This document shows positions 5,384 through 64,000 of a DNA stretch of 64,000 bases, piece by piece. The translations under genes were made by a program, and so were the position numbers. The stretch is from the NCBI RefSeq assembly GCF_958298935.1, contig NC_084942.1:8997501-9061500 (forward strand), read 5' to 3'. This DNA comes from Phragmites australis (lineage: Eukaryota; Streptophyta; Magnoliopsida; Poales; Poaceae). Under the pieces are notes generated by a model that was not told where the DNA came from, did no database searches, and was given only the letters and a program-made list of their open reading frames with translations. Each line of letters begins with the position of its first letter. Within the stretch, counting starts at the first letter, position 1.

Positions 5384-6700
5384 ATGGATTCTCATAGTGC
5401 TCCACTTTTCGATGCAACAAATTTTCCACATTGAAAAATTCTAATGTCTTGTTATTTTCAAGCTAGATGCTTAGATGTTTGAAGATTCACCGAGGGAAGG
5501 AAGAAACCTCTCATCACCAACAAGGAGACGCAATTAGATGCATTGGCAAAGAGTATCATTTTATCATCTACATGTGTTGATGCATTCAGTCGTATTTATT
5601 CTCTCACCAATTCACATGATATTTGGAATAGTCTCATTGAAATATATGAAGTCACAAAGGATGTACGCAATGAGAAATATCATGTGCTTGTTACTAAGCT
5701 TAATGGCATCAAGCAACTACCCCACGAAAGTGCTAATGATATGTATTTACGTTTGAATATTCTTGTCAATGAGATCAATGGGTTCGGTTTAACGCCAATT
5801 GAAGATGATCAAGTGGTGAGAAGAATACTTCAAGCTTTCCTTCCAAGTCAAGTGCTTGGCAAGATCATCGCCCATGAGATAACAATGAACATGGGGGTGG
5901 AAGCTTCTTCCTCATCCGACACCAAGAACTTTGCTCTCACAAGCAAACAAGCTAAATGTCAACACATGAAGGCAAGGATGAAGAGACAAGAGCAAGAGTC
6001 AAGCTCAAATGAAGATGATGAAGATGAAGATGAAGAGAGCTATAAAGAAGATGAGCAAAACACCTCAAGCGGTGAAGAGATGGATCCCGAAGTCGCCAAG
6101 CTCATCTCACAAGTGGAGAAGAACATGAAGAAGATCAATGCCAAGATTGATCATCCAATCTTCATGAAGGACTTAATCAAAACAATTGATCATATTAAGA
6201 AGGAAAAAAAAGGACCAAGAATAAGAGGGAGACAAGGGAAAGAGCCAAAGCATTCACAAGCATATAAAGATGGGTGAGTGATGATGAAGATTCAAGCTCA
6301 AATGATGAAAGCATCACCATCCACTCCTCCAAGAGAAACTCTTCCTCAAGCTCATCATCACACAAGTCGTCTCGCAAGCCATCTCATAAGTGCCTTATGG
6401 CCAAAGATATGGATAGTGATGTAAGTGATGATGAATCCGATGAGGATTTTTTTTTCCTATGATGAACTCCTTCATTTGATCAATGAGCAACAAAGGGTCC
6501 TTAAGAAACAATAAAAAAGCTTAAAAAATTTAATGCACTTGATTACATTCATGTTACCTTTGTTTCTAATTATGAACAATTATTGTGCAAATTCAATTTA
6601 CTAAATAAGAAGGATGAAGAGCTTAAGGATAAATTTGAGTGCATTGAATCTCAAACTAAGATCCCTTTGAAGCAATCTACATTTAGAATCATTTGTTATT
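5384..6700 (+). pseudogene. Copia gag of the nested element, broken
   Basis: The likely gag start is the ATG at 5384 (MDSHSAPLFDATNFPH), which hits a stop after 16 codons. The longest surviving frame is 5543-6277 (244 codons). It has the UBN2 pattern: SHDIWNSLIEIYE, KYHVLVTKLNGIK, NDMYLRLNILVNEI and LPSQVLGKI. Acidic, serine-rich and lysine-rich stretches follow. Another frame (6274-6462) and a short piece near 6583-6700 look like the continuing gag C-terminus, so there are also frameshifts. No zinc knuckle, protease or pol is present. Confidence 0.75.
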
Positions 6701-40130: not shown

Positions 40131-41054
40131 TAGTCCTTATATATCTTGAAAAGGAATATTAGTGTTGAATGTATCCGAACTAGTGATATTCTCGTCAAGT
40201 CCTGGTATGACTTGCACAACTCAGTGTGTGTTATGTAAGAGAATCCCGGAATCGGCTCTTCGTCTATTCGCCGAATGCAGATTCTCGATCCAAGTGTGGC
40301 GCATGATCGTGGTTTGGATTTCACAACCATAAGTGGACCTGGCAATGTGGCAACATGCATCCTCCGCCCATGAATGGGTGGACTTCTCTGGCCAATAGCC
40401 CCAGCACGCGACGAAAAGGCATGAAGTCACTCATCAAGTAAATAAATATACTATCGACTCAAGAATCTGTGGCCTTTCAGACCATCTACTACTGTAGTGT
40501 ACTGTAGTAGTGAGTTATACTATTGGTTATGCATATGTATATATGTACGTATAGGTATATGTATATGTAATTTTTATTTTTTAGAAAATTATAGGAAAAT
40601 ATCGAAATGAATATTAGTTATATTGATAAATCGACTGAAAAAAAATCTAAAATGCAAAGAAAAATATCTAGAACTCAAAAAAATATGAAACAATTTTTTT
40701 TAGGTTAGTATTACTTTCATCTACATGTTAAAACTATATGCATACACAAAAGTACTATTGTTTTCTCTATAATTAATTAAATGTGTTAAACATTGATAAA
40801 TTCATAGATAAATATTGAAATGCACATTTGTGAACCTAATTTTTTTAATCTTCTTTTGTTATACTCTATACAGCAAAATAAAAACGGACACGACATAGAC
40901 GCATCAATCAGACTAGTTATTCTGATTTGCTAGGAAACCTGGAAAGAGATAAATCAGAGGATTTTCAATCACAGAGATCAGCAACCTTCCTAGATAGTTC
41001 TAATGATCACGGACCAAGCCTCAGTCTGGGCGTTTACAAGATCGTGCGACCTTA
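40131..41054. other. Gene-free AT-rich sequence
   Basis: It contains an ATATGTATATGTACGTATAGG simple-repeat patch near 40530-40570 (partly shown) and long A/T runs. Small open frames at 40130-40430 have no recognisable similarity. No element boundary was found. Confidence 0.35.
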
Positions 41055-41327
41055 GGCCCTGTTTATTTCGGATTGTAAAAGCTAGATTGTGATCAAAATC
41101 GAAAAGCTGAAACAAACAGTTGGATTGTGATCACAATCCAAAAGCTGAAACAAACAGCTGGTTAGAAAAGCTGAATTGTTACAATCCAACATCCAGATTG
41201 TAATAATCCAGCAATATGTCTTCCACCAGATTGTAACAATCCACAATCCAGATTTTACAATCCAGCTTCTTACAATCTATAATCTACAAGTTGGTTTTCA
41301 CAATCACCAGTTGAAACAAACAGGCCC
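41055..41327. mobile_element. Tourist-like MITE, copy A
   Basis: The 273-bp element has ends GGCCCTGTTTATTTC and GGGCCTGTTTGTTTC (reverse complement) and a TTA on both sides (41052-41054, 41328-41330). The interior is made of repeated GATTGTGATCACAATCC-type palindromes and AGCTGAAACAAACAG units. Confidence 0.85.
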
Positions 41328-41459
41328 TTAGGCAACTAATATTACGAGAATAGGCTTTGGTTTTCCGTATTAAGAAACCATCAAAACTAAGCAGGCTATG
41401 TGAGCTCCTCGCTTGTAATTTTGTCATAACTCATCAGCCCGTCAAGCTCTTTCTTCTTA

Positions 41460-41760
41460 GGCCCTGTTTGTTTCAGCTGTAGATTGTGAAAAGCAGCTTA
41501 TAGATTGTGGATTGTAAGAAGCTAAATTGTAAAATCTGAATTATAAAAGCTGCATTGTGGATTGTTACAATCTGGTGGAAGGCAGATTGCTAGATTGTTA
41601 CAATCTGTGTGTTGGATTGTAACAATCCAGCTTTTCCAACCAACTGTTTGTTTCAGCTTTTGGATTGTGATCACAATCCAACTTTTACAATCCAGCTGTT
41701 TGTTTCAGCTTTTAGATTTTGATCAGAATCTAGCTTTTACCATCCGAAACAAAAAGAGCC
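41460..41760. mobile_element. Tourist-like MITE, copy B, inverted relative to copy A
   Basis: The 301-bp element is the reverse complement of copy A with point changes. It starts GGCCCTGTTTGTTTCAGC, ends GAAACAAAAAGAGCC and is flanked by TTA at 41457-41459 and 41761-41763. The open frame at 41562-41852 crosses its edge and is not a gene. Confidence 0.85.
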
Positions 41761-41825
41761 TTATTAATATATTAGGTAGTTCTCCAGCCGATTCTTTCAA
41801 AAAATACATAATACGTCATGGCTAT

Positions 41826-42075
41826 GTTTTTTTTTTTATTTTTTTGAGTTAAAATTTAAATAAATAGATTCTCGGTGAAAAAATTTACAAAACTAGGCGC
41901 CCGCAGCCCTCTCAGGGGGCTGCAGCCCTCTGAGAGGGCGGCTACGGGTCCTAACCACCCCCTGAGAGGGCGGTAGGTCTAACCGCCCCCTCAGAGGGAG
42001 GCAAGAGGTGCTAACCGGTTAGGCCCTGAGGGGGCGGTTAGCCCTAGCCGCCCTCTCAGAGGGCGGTTAGGGCCA
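41826..42075 (+). repeat. MULE left terminal inverted repeat
   Basis: An AT-rich outer part (GAGTTAAAATTTAAATAAAT, then GGTGAAAAAATTTACAAA) is followed by GGCGCCCG. Several modules of the palindrome CCGCCCTCTGAGAGGGCGG and variants then follow, separated by GGTTAGG/CCTAACC spacers. It matches the reverse complement of 49595-49844. Confidence 0.9.
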
Positions 42076-42447
42076 TTTTCTCCTGTAAAATTAATTTTTT
42101 TCCATTTTATCCTCTAAAAATGTATAATTTTTGTAATTAAAGAAATAAAAAAGGAAAGGGTGTAAGGAAATTAAGAAATTAAATTTGGAGTAGGTTATGT
42201 AATAATGAGAGAAAAAAATCAGTAGTTAGTAGTTGCAGTATTTTACGTGGGTATGGGGGTGGGAACGAGGACAAACATAGTATTGAACACATGGTGAAAA
42301 TATTACAATACACTGTAACCGCGACGACACGATAAGAAAATAAAGGTGGCATGTACAGTTCGCACTAAGATCTACTTATTAGTGCGCCGGTCCTAATCAT
42401 AACATGCCTTAGGGAAGGAAAGTATTTCGGGTTACATTAGTTACTCT

Positions 42448-43044
42448 CTACTGCGTGCATCTAGGATACTTTCCCTTTCGGAGGGCATCGGGACCTGCCG
42501 CCTTAGCATGGCGGGCTCTCTCCCGCTTCCTTTCCCTCTCAACCTCTCGAGCCTGAGCCACGGTACGGTCGTGCGCCGCCTTCCTCATACGCTCTTCTTC
42601 CTCCCGCTTGAGGCGAAGTTCCTCTTGCTGTTGTTCGTACTCCCGACGTGCGTAGGCTTCCCTTCTCCACCTCATGTTCATGTCGACCCACAGCTTCTAT
42701 GAGTCATTTTGCTCATTGTCAAGCCACTGAATAAAATCACAGAGCGGTGGAGGGGACTGAACAAATGGAACAAGATGAGCGGTTAGTAAAAGAGGGTGCA
42801 TAATCAGAAGAGATGAGGCGGATATCTGTTACCGTACCAGTCGATGACCAGTTGTTGCATGGCGATGCTTGTCATACTCGTAGTTGGCACACATGAAGAA
42901 GCGCAGTCCATAGGTGTATGAGATGTCCTGCGACTCACGGAGCTTACAAAGGTCACCACAGAAGCACATTGGTGGTTCGAGACCTTCAGGTATGGTAGTC
43001 CCCCAATGTTTCTTTGGTGGGCTCGATGGAGCTGAGGAAGACAT
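42448..43044 (-). pseudogene. MULE-encoded GRF-type zinc-finger protein, two exons, one premature TAG
   Basis: Exon 1 (43044-42838) starts MSSSAPSSPPKKHWG. It has the finger motif CFCGDLCKL and YGLRFFMCANY. The intron is GT-AG. Exon 2 (42756-42448) completes the finger with PPPLCDFIQWLDNEQ and continues as a highly charged coiled-coil-like tail (EQQQEELRLKREEEERMRK) to a normal stop. The C-x-C...GxRFFxC...C-FxxWxD arrangement matches the GRF zinc finger, a nucleic-acid-binding module. The total is 172 codons. The frame is interrupted by one in-frame TAG at 42697-42699, between NDS and KLWVDM, where a CAG would restore an ordinary sequence. The product is likely an accessory nucleic-acid-binding factor of the element; that role is inferred. 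Confidence 0.75.
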
Positions 43045-43504
43045 TGCACTTGAGAGATATGAGAAATGAGCGATACTTCATCGTAAGGAGGTTCGGCTAT
43101 TTATAGTTGGGGGAGGCAGGAGCATTGGATTCGCTCTTGAAGAAAGGAGTGAGGGCATGTGCGTAGCTGGTGGGAGGAGCATCGGATTCCATCTTGAAGA
43201 ATGGGAAAGTTTTGTCATTGTCCATGGTAAGAGATTTCACGTTTATTGGTACCCGTGTTGTCATTTACTGATTTGAAAAAGCTGGGTAGTGTTGTCACAT
43301 CTTGTTTAAAGCCTGCGGCAAGAGGCATGTGTTGTCAAGTCATGGTTAAAGTTTAGTGCTGTGGTCACTTCTCCATTGAACGTGTCAAAATATGGAATGC
43401 ATTTACGAAATGCTAAGTCGACCATACAAAGTGAACGTGTCTTAATATATAGGAGTACATCACGAAGCGAATATGCATATGTTAGTTACATAAAATGTAA
43501 AATG

Positions 43505-46409
43505 CTACTCATGCCTCCCTCGTTGCCGTCGCCCGTGCACCCCATCGTGGTCCCAATGCCGCTGGTTAACCATCACGTGACCCCTGGAGTAGGTGAGGGG
43601 GTCGGGTGGGCCGACGTGTCTGGTAGGCCTAGGAGGGACCACCGGTGTTGAGGTCTCGTCGTGCGTGGGCTGTGTCCAAAGCGGTGCACTGGAAACCTAG
43701 GACCGCTGAAGGACGTCGTAGTCAGGTGTGCCCCCGAAGAAGTCACGGACGATGTCGTATGCGGTGTCGGGGCCAGCCTCATCCTCCTGACTAAGGTAGG
43801 AGGACTGTGAAGGCTCGGCAGACGTCCATGTGTACTGGCTGGAGGGGCCTGTGAACAAATAATCACGTTAGGTACGAACAATATGGTTTTGAAAGTAGTA
43901 GTAAAAAATGTATAATTGTACCTGCGTGGTACGACAGTGCAGCAGAAAAAGGCCACGCTGACGTGCCGTAGTACGTTGCGGGGGGGGGGGGGGTAGGGCG
44001 TGGGGCCGCCGAAGACGGACCGGCCTCATCACCGAAGTAACCTGAGCATAGTACTAACTTATTTTGCTGAAAGTATTAGAAATTAGGAAGAAGAGTTCCC
44101 GGAGTACCTGACTGTGGACGCACAGGGCTCGATCTGCGAGGCTGCATCGAGACTTGTGCAGACGGACCTAATGAATGTTTAATAACAATAAGTAAAGGAT
44201 ATTGGTCAATATTATTGAAAAGTATAATTCGTACCATGTTGCTCGGACCCTCCAAGACGTGATAGAAGGGGTCGTGTGGGAGCCGACACTGAAGAACGTC
44301 GGTGCACGTCTGACGACCGAGACGACTCGACGTGTACACCACTCATCCTGGGAGGCGGCCCTGCTACATCTGTGGTAGATCGGTAGGAGGTGAGCTCCAA
44401 GGCGCGCGTCGTCTTGTCGAAAACCCGTCTAATGAAGCTCGCAACATCCGACGCACTTAGGTGAGGCCCTTGCCGGACGTGGTCCATGGCATCAGCTGCA
44501 TCCCTATTTACGTCATAAATGATATCTGTCTGCGGGTACGAACAAAAGTGAACAATTAAAGTATACGGTTATGTTCATTCAATATGGAGTACGGACTTCA
44601 AAAAGTTACTTACTGCTAAAGCGGCGTCCTCGTCCCAATGCACCGGGTATGTCTCCGCTGTCGATGCGACGTGGGCCCGGACATCCTCAGGGGTGGGTGA
44701 CACGTGTCCGCGTATGTGGTACGTACCACCGTAGGTACTCCCTGAAGTTCCCCTCGGTGTGGGGACGCACCTCATCAACGACGTCCTGTAGCGCTTGGGC
44801 CCATGTTGCCACGTAAGGGGCCAAGCGGTCCGCCCAGAGGTTGCCAGCTGGCTGGCCTTTTCGCGTGTACCTGCATTCATACCACGGTAAATGTAAGTCA
44901 AACTGAAACAAAGGTTGCTCAAACTATAATTTTGCAAGTGTACCTGTGGACTTGCAAGGGGACGGTACGGATGGGGATGAGCGGGAATGCCTGGTGACGG
45001 CCAAACTGCCGCATGACGCGGTGCGGTGAGTACTCTTCGACATAGATGTCGAAGACAAGGGGCGCCTTGGTGAGCCAGTACTCCTCGTCACAGGTGCACA
45101 AGGGGGACAAACCCAACCCTGCCCGTGTATGCACGGACCGAACGCTGTATGGCTCCCATCCCACATCGTTCGGACGTAGCCTGTCGAACTGGGTACGAAA
45201 ATGCTCATACGCGCTGCGAGGCTGCTCGTGGGTCCAGTGTGGCTGAGTGACAAACATCGATACAAATATTCAGAGACTAACATAGTACGAATGAAACTGT
45301 TAATGTAAAATACATGCCCGTCGACGACACCACAGCGAGGCCATTGTGGGCGCGTCCTCGTCCGTCTCGCCGTACCATTCCTCTGGGTACGGGGAGCGAT
45401 CCACCACTTCCTGCCTATGGCGAAATGCTCGTACGACCATAGCTGAAGAAGAAGTGGACACCCGGCGAAAGTGGCTAGTGCCTCCTTCTTCGTGCATGCG
45501 TCGCAGAGCGCCCGATATGTCGCAGCAAGAACAACGGATGCCCAGCTGAACTGCGGTACATCCTCCGCATCAGCGTCCACTATCGACCGGGCGTACAGCA
45601 CAAGTGTCCTCGTTACCAGGTGGCCTTGGCCACTAGTGAACATCACCCACCCAAAAAACCAAAGGAGGTAGGCCTCCAAATGTCTCGAGACCGCGTATGC
45701 GTTGGCGTGTGGGTGGGTGTACACCGGCTGCACATATGAATGATGTCAGAAAGGATCATTACGACATACTTTGTTAGTATTCGATAGGTTCCCTGTTACC
45801 GTACCTGGAACTGTAGGATCCACTTCTTCGTTGGCCCTCGTGCATCGGATAAGAACTCAGGCACGTAGGGGGGTGCGTCCGCCTTTCGCTCCACCAGCCC
45901 AAATCGCTGATGCATGTCGTTCATCCAGTCAATCTGCATATCGATGACCCCAACCGCAGCTCCTGCGCAAGGAAGGCCTAAGAGGTAGGAGACGTCCTGC
46001 AGGGTCGGAGTCATCTCTCCGCACGGTAGGTGGAACGTATGTGTCTCCGGCCTCCAACGGTCGACCAGTGCTGCTATCAGCGACCGATCGAAGTAGAAAC
46101 GACGGGCTGCAACCTCGGGGTTTTCCGTCGATCGGGCCTCGACCAACCGGCAAAGCGGTAGGAGTCCGGCCGCTGCCAACCTATAAGTATTGCAATACGT
46201 CAATAATATGTAACAACAGCAGTAATATGATAATTTTGTATCAAATTTTCTTAGTACATGTGGGTCCATCGCTCGTCTACCGTCAGCAGCTCTCCAGGGC
46301 CTCGTGGGCAAAACACTCCTAGCTCCGTCTGGTGCTCGGCGGATAAGAACATGCGATGCTTCTTGTCCACGGCAGGGTCCAAAAGCTCCGGGGTCGAAGG
46401 GTGAGCCAT
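43505..46409 (-). pseudogene. MULE-encoded plant mobile domain (PMD) protein, nine exons, disabled
   Basis: Exons on the minus strand are 46409-46258, 46180-45805, 45727-45318, 45242-44944, 44870-44614, 44529-44235, 44167-44108, 44041-43922 and 43848-43505. They total 2313 nt. The protein starts MAHPSTPELLDPAVDKKHR. The PMD core has FHLPCGEMTPTLQDVSYLLG, HLEAYLLWFFGWVMF, WASVVLAATYRALC and CPLLLQLWSYEHFAIG, then PNDVGWEPY. Exon 9 has RPTRHVGPPDPLTYSRGH near the end. Damage: one missing base near 45430 in exon 3, one extra C near 44697 in exon 5, and a TAG at 43697-43699. The intron after exon 3 would use a GC donor (CGG|GCATGT). A run of C residues in exon 8 may be length-variable. PMD proteins of host plants (MAIL1 group) act in gene silencing and development; the role in transposons is unknown. 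Confidence 0.8.
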
Positions 46410-46593
46410 CTCTGCATTTGAAAGACATGTACATTAATACATTGATAAATAAATACAACAACAATATACTTTGAATGGAAATTAACACATATTAAAATGG
46501 TACAAAACTAGCTGAACACACATGAAGCTCACCTAGACAACAGGTGCATCACCACCTGCAATTTTGGTACAATATTTGTAAGTGTGACCTACT

Positions 46594-49062
46594 TCATTGC
46601 TTCTTCATCTTTCCCAAATCAGGCACATATATTCTTGCAGGCCCTGGGTTACTTGTAAAAGTGTCAACAATGCTGTAACCATACAGCTCCTGGTTCCAGG
46701 TGTTCAATACTTGATCTTTCATGAAATATTGTGACACATATTGCCTTGGAAGCATATGGTGCTCCGCGCACGCAGCTATGATGTGTGTACAAGGTTTGTG
46801 GAGTAATTGTGGCTTCTGACAACTACATATGCATGTCCCACTCCTTAGCACACACTCTTGAACATGCTGCTCACGTCTACCCCCCCCCCTTCGACCCTTA
46901 TCCCGACACAGGACACTGAACCTGTGCTCTGCAGTGCTCTCTTGATTTGCGCGATGCATGTGGGCCTTCCTATTTGCCTTCTCCATGTACTCACATAGCA
47001 TCCGGCCGTAAAGCATACGATTGTCCTCCATTACAACCTTAGCAGCTGCATACCGATCAATAAAGTACTTGCAGGTCCCATGCAAAATGCCTTCTACAAT
47101 TCCAACTAGTGGTAGGGACCTCATTCCTCGCATGACCCAGTTATAAACCTTTGCAAGGTTTGTAGTCATTACTCCATACCTGGCACCACCACTGTCGTAC
47201 AGCAGAGCCCATTTTTCATTCGGCTCATTGCGTATCCACTGTGAAAAGATCCTAATAGATGAGCCTGATCTCCTTACAATCTACGGAGTATCGGTTGGGA
47301 GAGGACCGAGAGCCATTGGTTCCTCACCGTTAGGTGCAGCCTCCGCAGTTTGTTTAAGAGTCAGTTCATCAAGTCTTGCCCATAATGCGTTGAACTTACG
47401 TTGCTGGTTCTGACTGCACAACTTCTTGAAGAGCTTCATTAATTCTTTGTGTTTAAACTGTCTATAGAAGTTCGCACCCATATGGCGCATGCACCACCTG
47501 CTTTTGAGATCTAGCCACTGTACTGGTACACCCCGTCGCACGCTACCGTGTTGCATATCCAGCAAAGCCTGCAACAATCCTGCATATCTATCATGAATGA
47601 GACACACATCTGGTCGGTCAAGAACAATTGCATGCTTCACCTGCTCTAGGAACTAATACCAGCTGTCTCCGTTCTCACTCTCCACGAACGCAAACCCTAG
47701 TGGCAGGACTTGGTTGTTACCGTCGACCCCTATTGCAGACAAAATTTGCCCTTTGTACTTCCCAGTCAGGAATGTTCCATCTAGGCATATGATGGGTCGG
47801 CAATATCTAAATGCTTTGATAGTTGCACCGAATACAAAGAAAGCACGCTGCAACACTCTTTTTCCGCTGTACTCCACATCAATAGAGGGGTAATGCTTGA
47901 TATCATAGTAGCTGCCTGGATTTCTTGCACAAATTGTGGCTAATTGACGAGGTAGATTGTGATACGAATCTTCATATGTACCGAACCTCATCTCAATAGC
48001 CTTTTGTTTCGCCCTCCATGCTTTCGCATAGTTTATTGTGTACTGGAACATTTGCTCAATAGCACGGATTATTGATCGTGGCTCATACCTTAGGTTGTCC
48101 ACAATCTCTCCGTACATAACATTTGCAATGAAAGCAGAAGACAGGTTCCGGTGGGCGAACTCTATTTCCTCAATGTGACAAGTATGTTCCTTAACTATTG
48201 AGCATTGCCAGTAGTCTGCCCATTTCCCTCTGAATGCGTGCACCCGCCAAGGGCACTGAGGAACCAAGCATTTCACATCATACTCTCTTTTACTTGATTT
48301 AACAACCTTGAATTGCCTACGAAGAGACAATGACCAGAATTTCACTGCATCAATAACTGCCTCTTTTGTAGGGTACACAACACCCTGTGACACCTCATTC
48401 TCATGGTACTGCTACGGTGTCTGGTCAGCCTCGCTAACCACCAACTTCAAAAATTCTTGATCCCGCCACTCTGCAGAAACTGGAGCATTAACCTCCTCAT
48501 CAGACGAATCCCCATCGGTAAGGCCTTCCTCCAACTCTTCAGCCTCCAAATCCATATCTTCAATGATGCTAGGGATGTGCTCCCCTTCATCAGCTACACC
48601 CATCGACTGCAGCTCTGGAACATCACCAACCTCCTCCCTGGACCCTACATTAGCCGCCTCTAACTCATCTTCCACTGCCTCACTTGGTCCTGCTACTGCT
48701 TCTGCAGAGTTCACCTCATTTTGATCTTTCAAGTACGCCTCAGCTAATAAAATAAGCAGCAGGCCATGTTCACAGCATATATCTATATACTGCCTCTAAG
48801 TTGATGTGGCTTCGATGGGAACAAGCTCACCAAAGTATCCCTGACTAGCACGGCTCAGAACAGCTTTCAACTTCAGCTCATATTGCTGCAGATCCAGTTG
48901 GAAAAACCGCATGAGCCATTTGCATACACCCACAATAGTCCTCTCATTAGCCTTACTAAGTCCCTTCATGACATGACGAAATCCAGAGAGATCTACACCG
49001 TTGGGATTGTACCTAATTTCACCCTCACCATAATATATCTGAAAAATTAATTTATCTGCCAT
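46594..49062 (-). pseudogene. MuDR-type MULE transposase, one frame with four TAG stops
   Basis: From ATG 49062 to TGA 46594-46596 there is one uninterrupted frame of 823 codons apart from TAG at 48796-48798, 48412-48414, 47653-47655 and 47281-47283. Domain order: an N-terminal region (MADKLIFQIYYGEGEIRYNP), an acidic linker (48732-48415), and a MuDR-type DNA-binding domain (YPTKEAVIDAVKFWSL, CPWRVHAF, HTC). The DDE transposase core follows with ICLDGTFLTGKYKGQILSAI and CLIHDRYAGLLQAL. A SWIM zinc finger (CSCQKPQLLHKPCTH) lies near 46830-46780. Two stops sit where Trp is expected (STS-RQY; SWY-FLEQ). The other two (DQTP-QYH; TDTP-IVRR) are compatible with CAG. No frameshift was found, which is unusual for so many stops. 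It starts inside a possible acceptor (CCAGGGATG), so an untranslated 5' exon is possible. Confidence 0.85.
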
Positions 49063-49594
49063 CCCTGGAAACACCCGCAAATATAACCCATGTTAAGACA
49101 ACAAACTATATTTCTGATTATCGGATAAAATAGTTTCTAAATGCTGCCCTTTGTTCGCAAATTATTATCTAATGTTGCCTCATACGTCCGCAGGTACAAA
49201 TAATATACTAAAAACTATATACTACAAGTAACATATTGAAAATAATATACTAAAAATAATATTCTATATTTAACTGCTATCGTACCATTTTCTAACTAAA
49301 TTTGACAATTTTCTAAATCCTAGGTCATAAATGTCTAAAATCTATGTCATATACTACTACTGAACTAATTAACAAAAATAAAAAGGAAAAAAAATTACCT
49401 GAACTTTTTCTTCAAATCCACAGCCCAAATGCAGCAGGGCTTCGCCGACCTCTCTTCCTCCCCTCTCCTCTCCTCTCTACTTCCCTCTCTTCTCAAATTT
49501 CACTTTTTTCCGAATTTTATGAGTTTTTTCCCATTTTTTGGGCTATTTATGGCCGAGAGGGCGCGGGGGGCTGGTGCGGCCCGGCAGGGTGGGC

Positions 49595-49844
49595 GGAGCC
49601 CTTACCGCCCCCTGAGAGGGTGGTAAGGAGCTCTACCCGCCCCCTCAGGGGGCGGTAAGCTCGTGGGCCGGGCGGCAAGGCCCCAGCCGCCCTCTGAGGG
49701 GGCGGTTAGACCTACCGCCCTCTCAGGGGGCGGTTAGGACCCGTAACCGCCCTCTCAGAGGACTACGGGCGCCTAATTTTGTAAATATTTTCACCAAAAA
49801 TCTATTTATTTAAATTTTAACTAAAAAATATTAAAAAAAAACTC
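49595..49844 (-). repeat. MULE right terminal inverted repeat
   Basis: This is the reverse complement of the left repeat, with GGCGGTTAGGACCCGTAACCG and GGGCGCCTAATTTTGTAAA landmarks (each part shown) and an AAAAAAACTC end. The GC-rich modules are better preserved here than at the left end. The transposase starts about 530 bp inside; the sequence between (49080-49590) is AT-rich, then T/C-rich, and probably holds the transposase promoter. Confidence 0.9.
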
Positions 49845-49868
49845 CCTTATAGATGGCCAACTGGGCTG

Positions 49869-53709: not shown

Positions 53710-54819
53710 GAGGTTTTTTTTTTTACATTTTCTAACTTAAAAAATTAAATAAATAGATTTTGAATGAAAAATTTACAAAAATAGACGCCTACCGTCCTCT
53801 GAAATGACTGCAACAGCCCTTTCAGAGGGCGGTAAGGATGGCCCTTGCAGCCACTGAAATGACGGTTAGGCTACCGTTTCCGCAGCAAATAATACTCAGC
53901 CGCTAAATTTTCTCTTTATGTCTCCTCTATTTAAAACAGTGATCTTCTATTACTTCAAGAATCCTAAAAATTTTTGTACATGTTTCATAATCTATGTGCA
54001 ACCCATTTTAATTGAATTCAGCTAAAAAGCATGTGTAAAATTTAAACTAAAATTTTATATAAAAAAAGATACTTTTATAACTTCTAGAAATTGTTAGGGC
54101 ATCAAATAAATTCCCAAAAATCTGAAAAAATTCACTAATATTCTTCTTATATGATGGAGTATTTTTTAAAAAAATTATTTTTAACCATATGTTATATGGT
54201 GAAAAAGTGAGTTCCTTTCTAATACTCCATTTATATGTATTTTTATAATTTCATGTGATATTCTTCTTTTAACTCTATTTGAATTCAAACATATACAAAC
54301 CTAGGGCTGAAAATAATTTTATAAATTATTCCATCATATAAGAAGAATATTAGTTAACTTTTTCAGATTTTTAGGAATTTATTTGATGCCCTAACAATTT
54401 CTAGAAGTTATAAAAGTACCCTTTTCTAGAGAATTTTAGTTTAAATTCTACACATATTTTTAGGTGAATCTAATTAAAATAGGTTGTACATGGATTATGA
54501 AATATATAAAAAGGTTTTAGAATTTTTGGAGTAACAGAAAATCACTGTTTCAAATAGAGGAGACAGAAAGAGAAAATTTAGCGACTGAGTACTGTTCACT
54601 GTAGGAAAAGTAGAGTAAACACCTCTTATGTGGCTGTTGAGAGGGCTTACCGCCCTCTAAGAGTGCGATAAGGCCTATTTTTGCTACCATTCTTACCGTT
54701 CTCTGAAAGAACTGCAGTCTTTTGAAAGAGTGATAGGCGTGTATTTTTATAAATTTTTTCATCCAAAATATATTTATTTAATTTTTTAAGTTAAAAAATG
54801 TAAAAATAAAAAAAAACTC
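53710..54819. mobile_element. Fold-back MULE derivative (1110 bp), 9-bp target duplication
   Basis: It starts GAGGTTTTTTTT and ends AAAAAAACTC. Flanks are GGTTTCCTC (53701-53709) and GATTTCCTC (54820-54828), a 9-bp duplication with one change, as MULEs make. The arms (about 53710-54162 and 54332-54819) are inverted copies of each other almost end to end, leaving a loop of about 170 bp. The outer arms share AATAAATAGATTTTG-ATGAAAAATTTACAAA and TCAGAGGGCGGTAAGG words with the 8-kb MULE. It encodes nothing and could only move with an enzyme supplied elsewhere. A transcript across it would form a long hairpin. Confidence 0.9.
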
Positions 54820-54828
54820 GATTTCCTC

Positions 54829-59954: not shown

Positions 59955-62300
59955 TTATCCATCCCCAACAAGAAAAGCTTGTAGCTTGTTGCCACTCTGT
60001 ACCCAGCTAGAGGCAGGATTTTTCTGTACCTTCCTTGATTTCATTAGTGTTCTGATCTCATTTGCTTCACTCCACATCCCCGCCTCAGAATACATGTTCA
60101 TCAGTAGAGTGTAGTAGCCTGAGTGCTCTGGCTTCAACTCAAACAAATGCTCTGCTGCCCATCGTGCTAATTCAATGTGTCCATGTATACGGCAAGCCCC
60201 AAGTAATGCTCCCCAAACATCAGAATTAGCATGAAAAGGCATGTTTCTGATTATTTCAGCAGATTCAGTCAGTTGTCCAGCACGCCCAAGAAGATCTACC
60301 ATGCAAGCATAGTGCATCTGTTGCGGTTTAATATTTTGGGCAAGCATTTGACTGAAGTACTTCTTACCTCTCTCTACAAGCCCACCATGGCTACATGCTG
60401 ACAACACTGCAATGTAAGATACATGATCATAGTCGATACCATCATCCTTCATCAAATCAAACAATTCAAATGCAACATCAATTTGGCCATGCATCCCATA
60501 TCCCAAGATCATAGTGTTCCATGAAGCAACATCCTTTCCTGTAATCCTACTGAAGATCTTTGAGGCAGTATCAAGCATTCCACCTTTAGTGTACAAGTCC
60601 AGCAGTGAATTAGCCAGAAATGGGTGAGTACTTAACAATCTCCTCACTAAAACACCATGAATCTCTTTGCCTTGCTTAAATGCAGATAAATTAGCACATG
60701 CAGACAGACAACCCATGAAGGAAACAGCATCATACTCAACTCCGGAAGACCTCATCTGCTCAAAGAGATGCAGAGATTCAAAACAACATGGACTCTGCGA
60801 GTAACCCAAAATCAAAGTGTTGTATGATACGTCGTCTTTCTCTGACCTGTCAAAAATAATTCTTGCCAAGCTCAGATGCCCACACTTGGCATACACATCA
60901 ATCAAAGCATTTGATACGAACAAATCAGATATTAATCTTCTACGGATTGACCATGCATGGATCTGCTTCCCCATCTTTATAGAGGCCATCCTTGCACAGG
61001 CTGGAAGCAGATTCACAAGTGTGAATGAATTTGGGCATTCGCCATTCTTTTGCATTTCAATGACAAGCCTGAACGCCTCAGTCTCAGCTCCGTTTTGCAC
61101 AAGATTTGCAATCATTGCATTCCAGGAGACCACATTGCGTGCCTCAATTTTTTCAAAGACAGCAGACGCTTTCTCCAAACAACCAAATTTGGCATACATA
61201 TCCATTAGTGAGTTGGCAATGAAAATATCTGATTCCATCGCTCTCTTTATACTATACCCGTGCACCTCCTTCCCCAAATGAAAATAACCAAGATCAACCA
61301 AAGCAGGCAGCAAACTTGACAGCGTTATAGACCCTGGCATGACTCCACACTCTGGCATTGCCCTAAACAGTTCCAGCACATCTTCATAAAGCCCTGCATG
61401 AACAAAGCAACCTATTGCAGAATTCCAAGAAACCTCATTCATCTCCAGTGTTCCGTTAAACACTCGCATTGATGCCTCCAAGTCTCCAAATTTCCCGTAC
61501 ATATCAACCAATGCATTCCCGAGATTCACCACAGAGTCAAGTCCAGCTTTCAACGCCAACCCATGGACACCCAACCCAAACCCCTCCTCCCGCTCCACAC
61601 CACAGGCAGGCACCACCGACACCAAACTCGCCACATTTACCGGAACCCCGCTCCGCATCATCCCCACCACTACCCTCTTCGCGTCATCCAATATCCCGCT
61701 TGCCAAAAATGCCGAGACGAGAGAGTTCCACGAGACGACGTCCCGCGCGGGCATTTCATCAAACACCCTGCGCGCGTCGCTCGCGCGGCCGCAGGCTGCG
61801 TAGAACGCAACGAGCGTGTTTCCGGCGAAGACGTCCGCAAGGTGGCCGCGCCGGAGAGCAGCCGCATGGAGCTCGAGGCCCTTGGCGTAGTGGGCCTCTG
61901 CTGCTGCTGCTGCGGCGGCGGCGGCGTGGAGGGCGAAGGGGAAGGTGCGGTCGTCTGGGCGCACGCCAGAGCGGACCATGCGGTTGTAGACTTGCAGGGC
62001 CTCGGCAGGGAAGGCGGCGGAGGAGAGCGCGCGGGAGAGAGAGTTCCAGAGGAAGGCAGAGCGGAGGCGGAGCGGGTGGCAACGGAGGACGAGGCGCGCC
62101 GAGGGGATGTCGGCGAGCGCGGAGTAGGATAGGAGCAGGGCACCCGCGAGGGGGAGGGACGCGGAGAGGGCGCCGGATACGAGGGCGGCCGCGTGGGCGC
62201 GGTGGAGGAGGAGGTGGCCGCCGCCGCATTGGTGGAGGCGGAGGACGTGCTCGTGGAGGGACGCGGCCGTGAAGACGGTGGCGGGAGCGCGCTGCTGCAT
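59955..62300 (-). CDS. Pentatricopeptide repeat protein, PLS class with E-type C-terminus, 781 aa
   Basis: This single-exon gene starts at ATG 62300 (MQQRAPATVFTAASLHEHV). Repeated P, L and S motifs run through the protein, with the usual anchors: GNTLVAFYAACGRASDARRVF, then DVVSWNSLVSAFL, GNALVDMYGKFGDLEASMRVF, NVVSWNAMIANLVQ, NALIDVYAKCGHLSLARIIF and DVASWNTMILGYGMHGQ (parts shown). The end has E-motif sequence (VWGALLGACRIHGHIELA, YYTLLMNMYSEAGMWSEANE, NPASSWVQ) and then stops. No DYW deaminase domain is attached. PLS-class proteins of this type usually bind organellar RNA and take part in C-to-U editing with a DYW partner. The target is unknown. The N-terminus shows no strong mitochondrial or plastid presequence by eye. 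The first 230 codons are GC-rich with strong open frames on other strands, which are shadows. The gene appears intact. Confidence 0.92.
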   Translation of the reverse strand: MQQRAPATVFTAASLHEHVLRLHQCGGGHLLLHRAHAAALVSGALSASLPLAGALLLSYSALADIPSARLVLRCHPLRLRSAFLWNSLSRALSSAAFPAEALQVYNRMVRSGVRPDDRTFPFALHAAAAAAAAAEAHYAKGLELHAAALRRGHLADVFAGNTLVAFYAACGRASDARRVFDEMPARDVVSWNSLVSAFLASGILDDAKRVVVGMMRSGVPVNVASLVSVVPACGVEREEGFGLGVHGLALKAGLDSVVNLGNALVDMYGKFGDLEASMRVFNGTLEMNEVSWNSAIGCFVHAGLYEDVLELFRAMPECGVMPGSITLSSLLPALVDLGYFHLGKEVHGYSIKRAMESDIFIANSLMDMYAKFGCLEKASAVFEKIEARNVVSWNAMIANLVQNGAETEAFRLVIEMQKNGECPNSFTLVNLLPACARMASIKMGKQIHAWSIRRRLISDLFVSNALIDVYAKCGHLSLARIIFDRSEKDDVSYNTLILGYSQSPCCFESLHLFEQMRSSGVEYDAVSFMGCLSACANLSAFKQGKEIHGVLVRRLLSTHPFLANSLLDLYTKGGMLDTASKIFSRITGKDVASWNTMILGYGMHGQIDVAFELFDLMKDDGIDYDHVSYIAVLSACSHGGLVERGKKYFSQMLAQNIKPQQMHYACMVDLLGRAGQLTESAEIIRNMPFHANSDVWGALLGACRIHGHIELARWAAEHLFELKPEHSGYYTLLMNMYSEAGMWSEANEIRTLMKSRKVQKNPASSWVQSGNKLQAFLVGDG

Positions 62301-64000
62301 GAAATTGTTTGCAGGTGGAAAGGAAAACGCGAGTTGTGGCTAATTACGCGGTGAGTCCTGTAATCATTCGCATTCTTTTTCTCTTATTCATCAGAAAATA
62401 AGACGTGTTATTTAGCCACGTCATCAAAAAATACAAAAATAATTGGTACTCCAAAATAAAAATAGAAATTGAATTTAGTGTCGTTCGTAGATTACATGAA
62501 TCTAAGGATGTCTAATAAGGAAGACGATGCTGTGAGAATCCGGAGATAACAAAGGTGTTGTTGGCCAGTGATAAGACAATGGAGATCGAAAAGCAAAGAG
62601 TAGTTATGGTATTTGTTGCATGGATGGGTGGAGTCGTCATGTGCATGTGGGCTGTGGCAGCAACGACAGGGTGATTAGAGAAGAATGGAAATTTGGGTTT
62701 GTAGAGAACTAGTGTTGCCAAGGTGATGGTGTACGCTCCGTGCTACTGTCGAGTACAATAGAGGTCTTAGCGCTCATGTGCTTGTGGTTCTGAAAAGTGA
62801 ATGTTGATGAGAAGATAGGTGACATTAATTTGATTGGTCCATAAAAGTTTGTCTTTTTTCAGAAAAAATAAGTGAAACTATATAAAAATGATAATGTACC
62901 AACATCTTCCCTTCCTTATGACCCCTATTTTATCAGACTTCTCCTTCGTTCGCACGAGATATAGTGGTTGTGCAATTCCTCTCTGCACTTACACTACTCC
63001 CTGTGGTCTTCAGCGTGCCCAACCTCTATTCCCTTATGCTCTCTCATTTTTTATGAGACTCCCACCTCCCCTTAACGCTTTATTTCATCGCTAGGAAAAT
63101 ACACTAGACCATACGCACTCACCCATCAATACCTAAGCTCGTCATTGACCACATTTACGTGTAGATCTACAATGGTGCGCCAAATCTGAGGTAGGGCATA
63201 GAGAGATGGCTCATGCAAACAAAAAATCTAGGCCCCTTGGGACAACTTTTGGTAAAAAAAATTGAACCGAGGCCTCAAACGGCATGCTTCCCCCGCTTCT
63301 CACGAACACCATTTTAGGAGACCCCTCCTCGTTACACCTGCGATGCAGAAGCGGCCGAACACCCGTGCATATGTTAAATAGAGCCACTGAAGTTTGGAAA
63401 TAATTATCCACAAACGACACTCTCCTTATGAGATCCTAATTATTTGTTTAAGGTTCATTCAAATTTGTTCATAGATCTAGTAAAGATTTTTTTCAGAGAA
63501 CTTAACTGAATTTGTATACTCCTTTACTAAGTAATGATTCAGTTTGCACCAAATGCATGGCATTTTTCTTTTCAGGTATGTATTGAAGCTTGTGCAGTTT
63601 GCTCATGTGTGATGCTTGGAGTTGGTCTTTGGAGAGTTCAGTGATGGCTGAAGTAGTTGTGGTTTTGCCAATGTTATAGATTCTTCTTCAGAGTATGTCC
63701 AATGTAATAAACTTTTCTATTGTCATACTTTACACTTATATACGAAATTATTAATACTAGAAAAATTCCACTAAAATGTAAAAGATTAATGAAAGTAATG
63801 ACATCAACATTTATTCAGCAATTAAACTAAGTGTTCATTCTGTTCAGAGGGATATTGGTCATTATACACTCAAGACAGATAATCTCCAAAAACAAAACTA
63901 GGGTTGCCAAAGGGCCAGCTTCTCCAGCTAATGGATTCTTCTTACAGGATTTTTCGAGGACAACAAACTTATCGGAAATGCTCCTTAGAAAAAAGTTTTT
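62301..64000. other. PPR upstream region and gene-free right edge
   Basis: The first few hundred bases should hold the PPR promoter; no clear TATA box stands out. The T-rich stretch at 62890-63100 and the block at 63200-63420 match nothing I recognise. AG|GTATGTATTG near 63577 resembles a splice junction, but no flanking exon is convincing. Confidence 0.35.

Follow-up and report, generated by a model that had tools for sequence, protein, structure and literature searches.

Does the Mutator-like element (MULE) found at one locus of the Phragmites australis genome carry a conserved set of genes, or did it catch two of them by chance? The element lies in a 64,000-nucleotide stretch of DNA (C22:8997501-9061500, here called the window) of an 848-Mb, 28-contig assembly that was also searched for further copies. 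An initial annotation had described a single element with a MuDR-type transposase gene, a plant mobile domain (PMD) gene and a GRF zinc-finger gene, all on the same strand and enclosed by terminal inverted repeats (TIRs). That description stands: the element spans window positions 41826-49846, only 2 bases off the earlier coordinates, and the three genes follow one another in that order on the minus strand, starting at 49062. The transposase-PMD-GRF set is a real cassette, and the copy at this locus is dead. The locus is probably best explained as a decayed member of a high-copy, autonomous TIR MULE family that encodes three proteins, in which PMD would be an anti-silencing factor of the VANC type and GRF its partner.

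Recurrence of the set was traced with the transposase as query (571 amino acids), which gave at least 76 scored places drawn from 7355 candidates, the window copy matching at 100% and the others at 91-94% identity; the matched part is free of stops in 14 of the 76. Twenty-four other copies were examined, namely the 20 best after the window copy and four of the lowest-ranked. Seventeen of them carry both accessory genes, four PMD only (L010, L014, L021, L026), two GRF only (L031, L033) and one neither (L018), and the gene order and the single strand are invariant across all 24. Three genes and both TIRs are in view in 12 of the first 20 copies and in L032 among the last four; the remaining copies appear truncated or internally deleted, or extend beyond the examined stretch. 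Elements with the same TIR were expected to carry the three genes in the same order and with open frames. The first expectation holds, while the second fails in that none of the 24 copies has all three genes open by the criteria used.

The placing of the genes across the genome was taken from the 76 transposases, 150 GRF places and the first 83 listed PMD places, so that all counts are lower bounds. For at least 45 of the 76 transposases, a same-strand GRF exon follows downstream at a distance of no more than 12 kb, where 0.08 would be expected under uniform placing; among the matches listed, no transposase has one upstream or on the opposite strand. A listed PMD is downstream of at least 28 of the 76. 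At least 39 of the 150 GRF places have a PMD upstream, and none has one downstream among the matches listed. Of 40 scored TIR matches, at least 30 have a gene match no more than 10 kb away, and at least eight have both PMD and GRF at that distance.

Selection on the genes was estimated by the Nei-Gojobori method over all pairs, including the window copy and excluding matches below 75% identity. The dN/dS is 0.32 for the transposase (25 copies; 0.29-0.36 in a bootstrap over copies), 0.39 for PMD (22 copies, exons 1-6 and 9; 0.34-0.43) and 0.30 for GRF (20 copies; 0.25-0.37). Under neutrality, simulated means were 0.80-0.85 at kappa 2 and 0.62-0.70 at kappa 6, the lowest single value being 0.50. 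Since the accessory values lie so close to that of the transposase, these sequence comparisons point to purifying selection having kept PMD and GRF at about the transposase's level, in agreement with the earlier proposal of a conserved cassette as opposed to a chance capture.

Domains of the set are also joined in some rice gene models. Protein searches found 124 GRF, 179 PMD and 110 transposase relatives, of which the best 120, the best 120 and all 110 were studied; the PMD and transposase searches scored only the candidates sharing most words with the query. Nearly all named homologues are from grasses, with two distant transposase rows from Catharanthus and Prunus. Transposase and PMD are joined in 63 of the 217 proteins having either stretch, the transposase first in 63 of 63. 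A GRF profile matches 11 of 218 transposase or PMD homologues at an independent E-value (iE) below 0.05, the best of 436 decoys reaching 0.73. All 11 are Oryza proteins in which the GRF part lies towards the C terminus; seven have transposase, PMD and GRF parts, in the order of the window element, and four have transposase and GRF parts. The GRF domain is whole in P0227 (OSJNBa0067G20.20) and P0321 and partial in the other nine (iE 7e-5 to 0.016). The profile included P0227's own domains; a profile built without rice sequences still gives 3.7e-9 for P0227 and 3.7e-7 for P0321. The rice rows come from automatic annotation, in which adjacent genes may have been fused, and copies of one rice family are not independent; here it is precisely the fusion that reveals the gene neighbourhood. 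Recurrence beyond this genome is borne out in these Oryza gene models. Two Paspalum proteins, P0126 and P0181, match GRF weakly (iE 0.018 and 0.016 in one profile search, 0.9 and 0.09 in another), and P0296 and P0130 resemble it by eye only. The viral contigs scanned contained no relative. A scan of genome contigs returned a single one, L001 (Dechloromonas sp. H13, 3290 bp, low coverage), with the transposase only; its MULE transposase is of the grass type, reaching 54% in the best segment, and the contig is probably plant contamination in a bacterial assembly.

Assignment of the three proteins relies on Pfam profiles and predicted structures. The window transposase scores 66.8 bits for DUF1979 (cut-off 28.3), 32.2 for DBD_Tnp_Mut (PF03108; 25) and 40.4 for MULE (PF10551; 27.6), the last two marking a DDE transposase of the MULE family. 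The DNA-binding domain and DDE core of the initial annotation are thereby retained; its SWIM finger is seen as a SWIM-like CxC..CxH, with a score of 13.9 bits that lies under the cut-off of 19.6. The nine-exon PMD gene scores 70.8 and 49.6 bits for PF10536 (cut-off 34.9) on two exon stretches, and eight of eight exons queried, a set without the 60-base seventh, are present in other family copies. PF10536 is the only match of the window PMD exons; DUF1985, the domain of the VANC gene of VANDAL elements, was not found in them and occurs in one of 35 PMD relatives (E 0.006). The predicted model of a PMD relative matches 9lnj, the DNA-bound structure of VANC21, an anti-silencing protein, as its sole strong structural match, so that the family's PMD is predicted to have a VANC-like fold.

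The GRF gene is a less obvious case, the window exon scoring 14.7 bits against PF06839, under the cut-off of 25.9. Within the GRF family, PF06839 matches eight of 21 members at E up to 0.1 (best 9.1e-5), and rice P0227 exceeds the cut-off at 36.8 bits. Cysteines C27, C29 and C75 are invariant across the 21 members and C52 nearly so; all four, the presumptive zinc ligands of the finger, are present in the window. The top six matches of the predicted model of a relative, P0003, are NEIL3, ZCCHC4 and APE2 (best E 4.9e-3, none below 0.001). The family and this predicted GRF fold support placing the window gene among the GRF zinc fingers despite its score, and the two-exon structure previously assigned to it is recovered, both exons being found in other copies. 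Sequence searches of the PDB gave nothing useful with the transposase or PMD, and no GRF chain among 29 matches with the GRF profile.

The ends of the element are long TIRs typical of MULEs. Each is about 250 bp and consists of an AT-rich tip followed by five to six GC palindromes. Both the matching repeats and their palindromic modules had been noted before and are confirmed here: the arms are 88% complementary over 41828-41920/49749-49841 and 91% over 41914-42002/49686-49774, and the window has 23 occurrences of the module CCGCCCYCTSAGRGGG when up to 2 mismatches are tolerated, where shuffles lead one to expect 0.06; 20 of the 23 lie in the two TIRs. In 16 family copies there are 1-6 palindromes per TIR and zero elsewhere. 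The tips are mostly 5'-GAGTTTT..AAAACTC-3', with one end deviating in L022 and in L027. MULEs have target-site duplications (TSDs) of 8-11 bp, and these were surveyed in the 13 two-ended copies among the first 20 fetched. A TSD-like flanking repeat of 8-10 bp is present in 12 of the 13 (nine exact, three with one mismatch), where a match of at least 8/9 arises in 8.8% of random 40 x 40 base pairs of flanks; L026, the sole exception, has an exact 9-mer away from the tips. At the window copy a TSD was sought at both flanks and none was found; an exact 8-bp repeat, CATGGCTA, at 41817 and 49896 was a candidate and is not counted because its second copy lies about 50 bp past the element end.

The window copy is dead because it has six in-frame TAGs, two PMD frameshifts and a lost Glu, and the TSD is also absent. 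All three genes are damaged. The transposase has four TAGs, three of which fall where at least 15 of 16 aligned homologues agree; Lys replaces a Glu that is invariant across the 16 and that we take to be the catalytic one, and the C-terminal zinc-knuckle part is truncated relative to the homologues. That Glu is kept in 19 of the 21 other family copies covering the position. PMD has frameshifts near 45410 and 44691, one TAG at 43697 and non-canonical exon 3/4 splice sites; GRF has one TAG, in exon 2. The TAGs, frameshifts and lost Glu rule out a working element or a domesticated host gene at this locus. Several copies (e.g. L014, L015, L019, L025, L027) carry stops at the same codons and the same Glu to Lys change, either as hot spots of methylated-C decay or by shared ancestry. 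TAG makes up 6/6 stops in the window copy; the excess was dropped as proof of methylation decay, and is suggestive only, because 46 of 81 stops are TAG in the other copies.

How would such a family work? Its members would be, or once have been, autonomous, with the DDE transposase presumably cutting and joining the element ends. The PMD protein would bind a DNA motif that recurs in the non-coding ends of its own element, for which the GC palindromes, found only in TIRs, are the best candidate, and may thereby lift host silencing from the family's copies. This proposal is drawn by analogy with VANC21, which binds a 9-base motif arrayed in the non-coding parts of VANDAL21 and whose expression removes methylation from the family (PMC5735166). 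The GRF protein, a putative zinc-ribbon nucleic-acid binder on a long helix, may help the transposase or PMD where end DNA is single-stranded or extruded, a suggestion made because the GRF domain of APE2 binds single-stranded DNA. Integration-site choice, anti-silencing and end binding had all been suggested as functions; anti-silencing gains support from the predicted fold match. A wider interpretation, to which we give slightly less than even chances, is that PMD and VANC belong to a single, ancient fold family, whose members are carried by transposons and bind DNA by reading its sequence, with PMD as a DNA-binding domain: grass MULEs would use PMD and its GRF partner for VANC-type anti-silencing at their own TIR palindrome arrays, and plants would use the fold (MAIN, MAIL1) for silencing. 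Two caveats apply. The GRF intron diverges slowly (0.037; the seven introns average 0.079, range 0.036-0.128), so the case for selection on GRF is weaker, and the palindromes may be transposase sites instead of PMD targets.

The same confinement of the palindromes to the TIRs would suit PMD and GRF proteins acting purely as transposition helpers in end binding, hairpin or gap handling, or insertion, with silencing uninvolved. Such a role resembles that proposed for mudrB, which is apparently required for integration (PMC6446971), and is in keeping with the single-stranded DNA binding of the APE2 GRF domain (PMC6122073), but it leaves the sole strong structural match of PMD, to an anti-silencing protein, out of account; as a full explanation it is unlikely, a helper role being likely for GRF and less so for PMD. 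Somewhat less likely still, PMD might be a protein decoy that resembles host MAIN/MAIL1 and blocks or hijacks the PP7L silencing complex without binding element DNA. MAIN and MAIL1 act in silencing with PP7L (PMC7156037), and an anti-silencing role for captured PMDs is a speculation of Ikeda et al. (PMC5418596); the fold match, however, is to a DNA-bound structure. That PMD and GRF are passengers caught by chance as in Pack-MULEs, a type of capture documented for MULEs (PMC13317346) and favoured by the one copy in 24 with neither gene, is very improbable and is rejected for the family on the dN/dS values, the genome-wide fixed order and strand, the recurrence in rice gene models and the identical exon structure across copies.

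The PMD phylogeny bears on how the gene was acquired. In a quick, midpoint-rooted tree of 117 PMDs, a branch with support 97 separates the window sequence, all 41 rows marked as MULE-fused and 52 unmarked rows from the others; the marking of MULE-fused rows overlooked P0235. The other side has 23 rows, including P0231 (named MAIN-LIKE 1-like) and its near twin P0235. These are near-identical rice PMDs, and P0235 is listed with the MuDR domain PF03108; they may represent another lineage of MULE-linked PMDs, or else a host gene with a wrong label. A second such lineage likely exists because P0235 carries PF03108. The same neighbour deprives the tree of a clean host row, and the tree was dropped as proof of a single capture; it is no more than compatible with the captures proposed by Ikeda et al. 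(PMC5418596). Transposase and PMD distances correlate at r 0.87 (46 rows), 0.76 (14 rows after thinning) and 0.26 (8 rows, non-significant). The genome has many further PMD places with a 525-amino-acid frame and a nearly identical set of stops, apparently a separate PMD family.

Table 1. Features of the element and its small relative, in window coordinates.
Feature	Position	Strand	Remarks
TIR, 3' side of genes	41826..42075	+	about six GC-palindrome modules; outermost bases degenerate
GRF zinc-finger gene	42448..43044	-	exons 43044-42838 and 42756-42448; zinc ribbon, long charged helix, KGKYPRCTQ end
PMD gene, nine exons	43505..46409	-	PF10536 match, other family copies
PMD exons 1-5	46409-46258, 46180-45805, 45727-45318, 45257-44944, 44870-44614		
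PMD exons 6-9	44529-44235, 44167-44108, 44041-43922, 43848-43505		
MuDR-type transposase	46594..49062	-	DUF1979, DBD_Tnp_Mut, MULE/DDE, SWIM-like CxC..CxH
TIR, 5' side of genes	49598..49846	-	five modules; tip GAGTTTT, same in most other copies
Small non-autonomous relative	53710..54822		ends belong to the same TIR family (77-81% identity); no genes seen

The small relative in Table 1, 4 kb from the large element, contains large inverted repeats in its interior and is flanked by a 9-bp repeat whose copies differ by one mismatch. Adjoining the element's left end, nested inverted repeats of GATTGTGATCACAATC-like units (41054-41761) form another fold-back or MITE-like element. Elsewhere in the window are a host gene that lies some 10 kb away from the element (59955-62339, minus strand; a 794-amino-acid open reading frame, or ORF, with PPR repeats and an E motif) and a Copia-type gag ORF (5483-6277; Retrotran_gag_2, 33.1 bits). 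A scan of the window with Rfam at gathering scores gave no match.

PMD carriage by MULEs, as the initial annotation stated, is already known (PMC5418596), as are three-gene MULEs (VANDAL21, Abermu) and accessory ORFs generally. Neither a GRF gene in MULEs nor the likeness of PMD to VANC21 is described in any paper found by a literature search that left most subscription journals out. A 2021 review counts PMD among the domains of unknown function and raises the question of whether MAIN/MAIL1, as a complex, interacts with chromatin (PMC8616336); the fold match predicts that PMD should bind DNA as VANC21 does. If this is true, one protein fold would connect a silencing pathway of the host with an anti-silencing system of a transposon, and multi-gene anti-silencing MULEs would be suggested in grasses as well as Arabidopsis, with the GRF gene adding a second selected factor.

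The closest known system is that of the PMD-bearing grass MULEs of Ikeda et al. (2017, PMC5418596), which have the same MULE transposase and an associated PMD and probably belong to the same broad lineage. That paper describes PMD-transposase fusion proteins, whereas in the element described here PMD is a gene with a start and exons of its own, and GRF makes a third; its accessible sections name no GRF gene, TIR modules or selection test. VANDAL21/Hiun of Arabidopsis (VANA, VANB, VANC; PMC5735166, PMC10398659) is likewise a three-gene MULE with a transposase and accessory genes, and has motif arrays in its non-coding parts and, by the predicted PMD model, a shared fold, but the sequence families differ, PF10536 here versus DUF1985 in VANC. 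A contrast in TIRs is unsure because VANDALs are called non-TIR MULEs in one source (PMC13317346) and TIRs are mentioned in VANDAL21 in another (PMC10398659). Abermu of barley (PMC9168764) is similarly a grass MULE of high copy number and about 8 kb, with three ORFs and TSDs that mostly measure 9 bp; no PMD or GRF domain is named for its extra ORFs in the accessible sections, and one ORF is on the opposite strand, in contrast to the single strand seen here. MuDR of maize (PMC6446971, PMC9168764) shares the MuDR-type transposase, long TIRs and an accessory gene but, unlike the window element, has two genes, mudrA and mudrB, transcribed in opposite directions.

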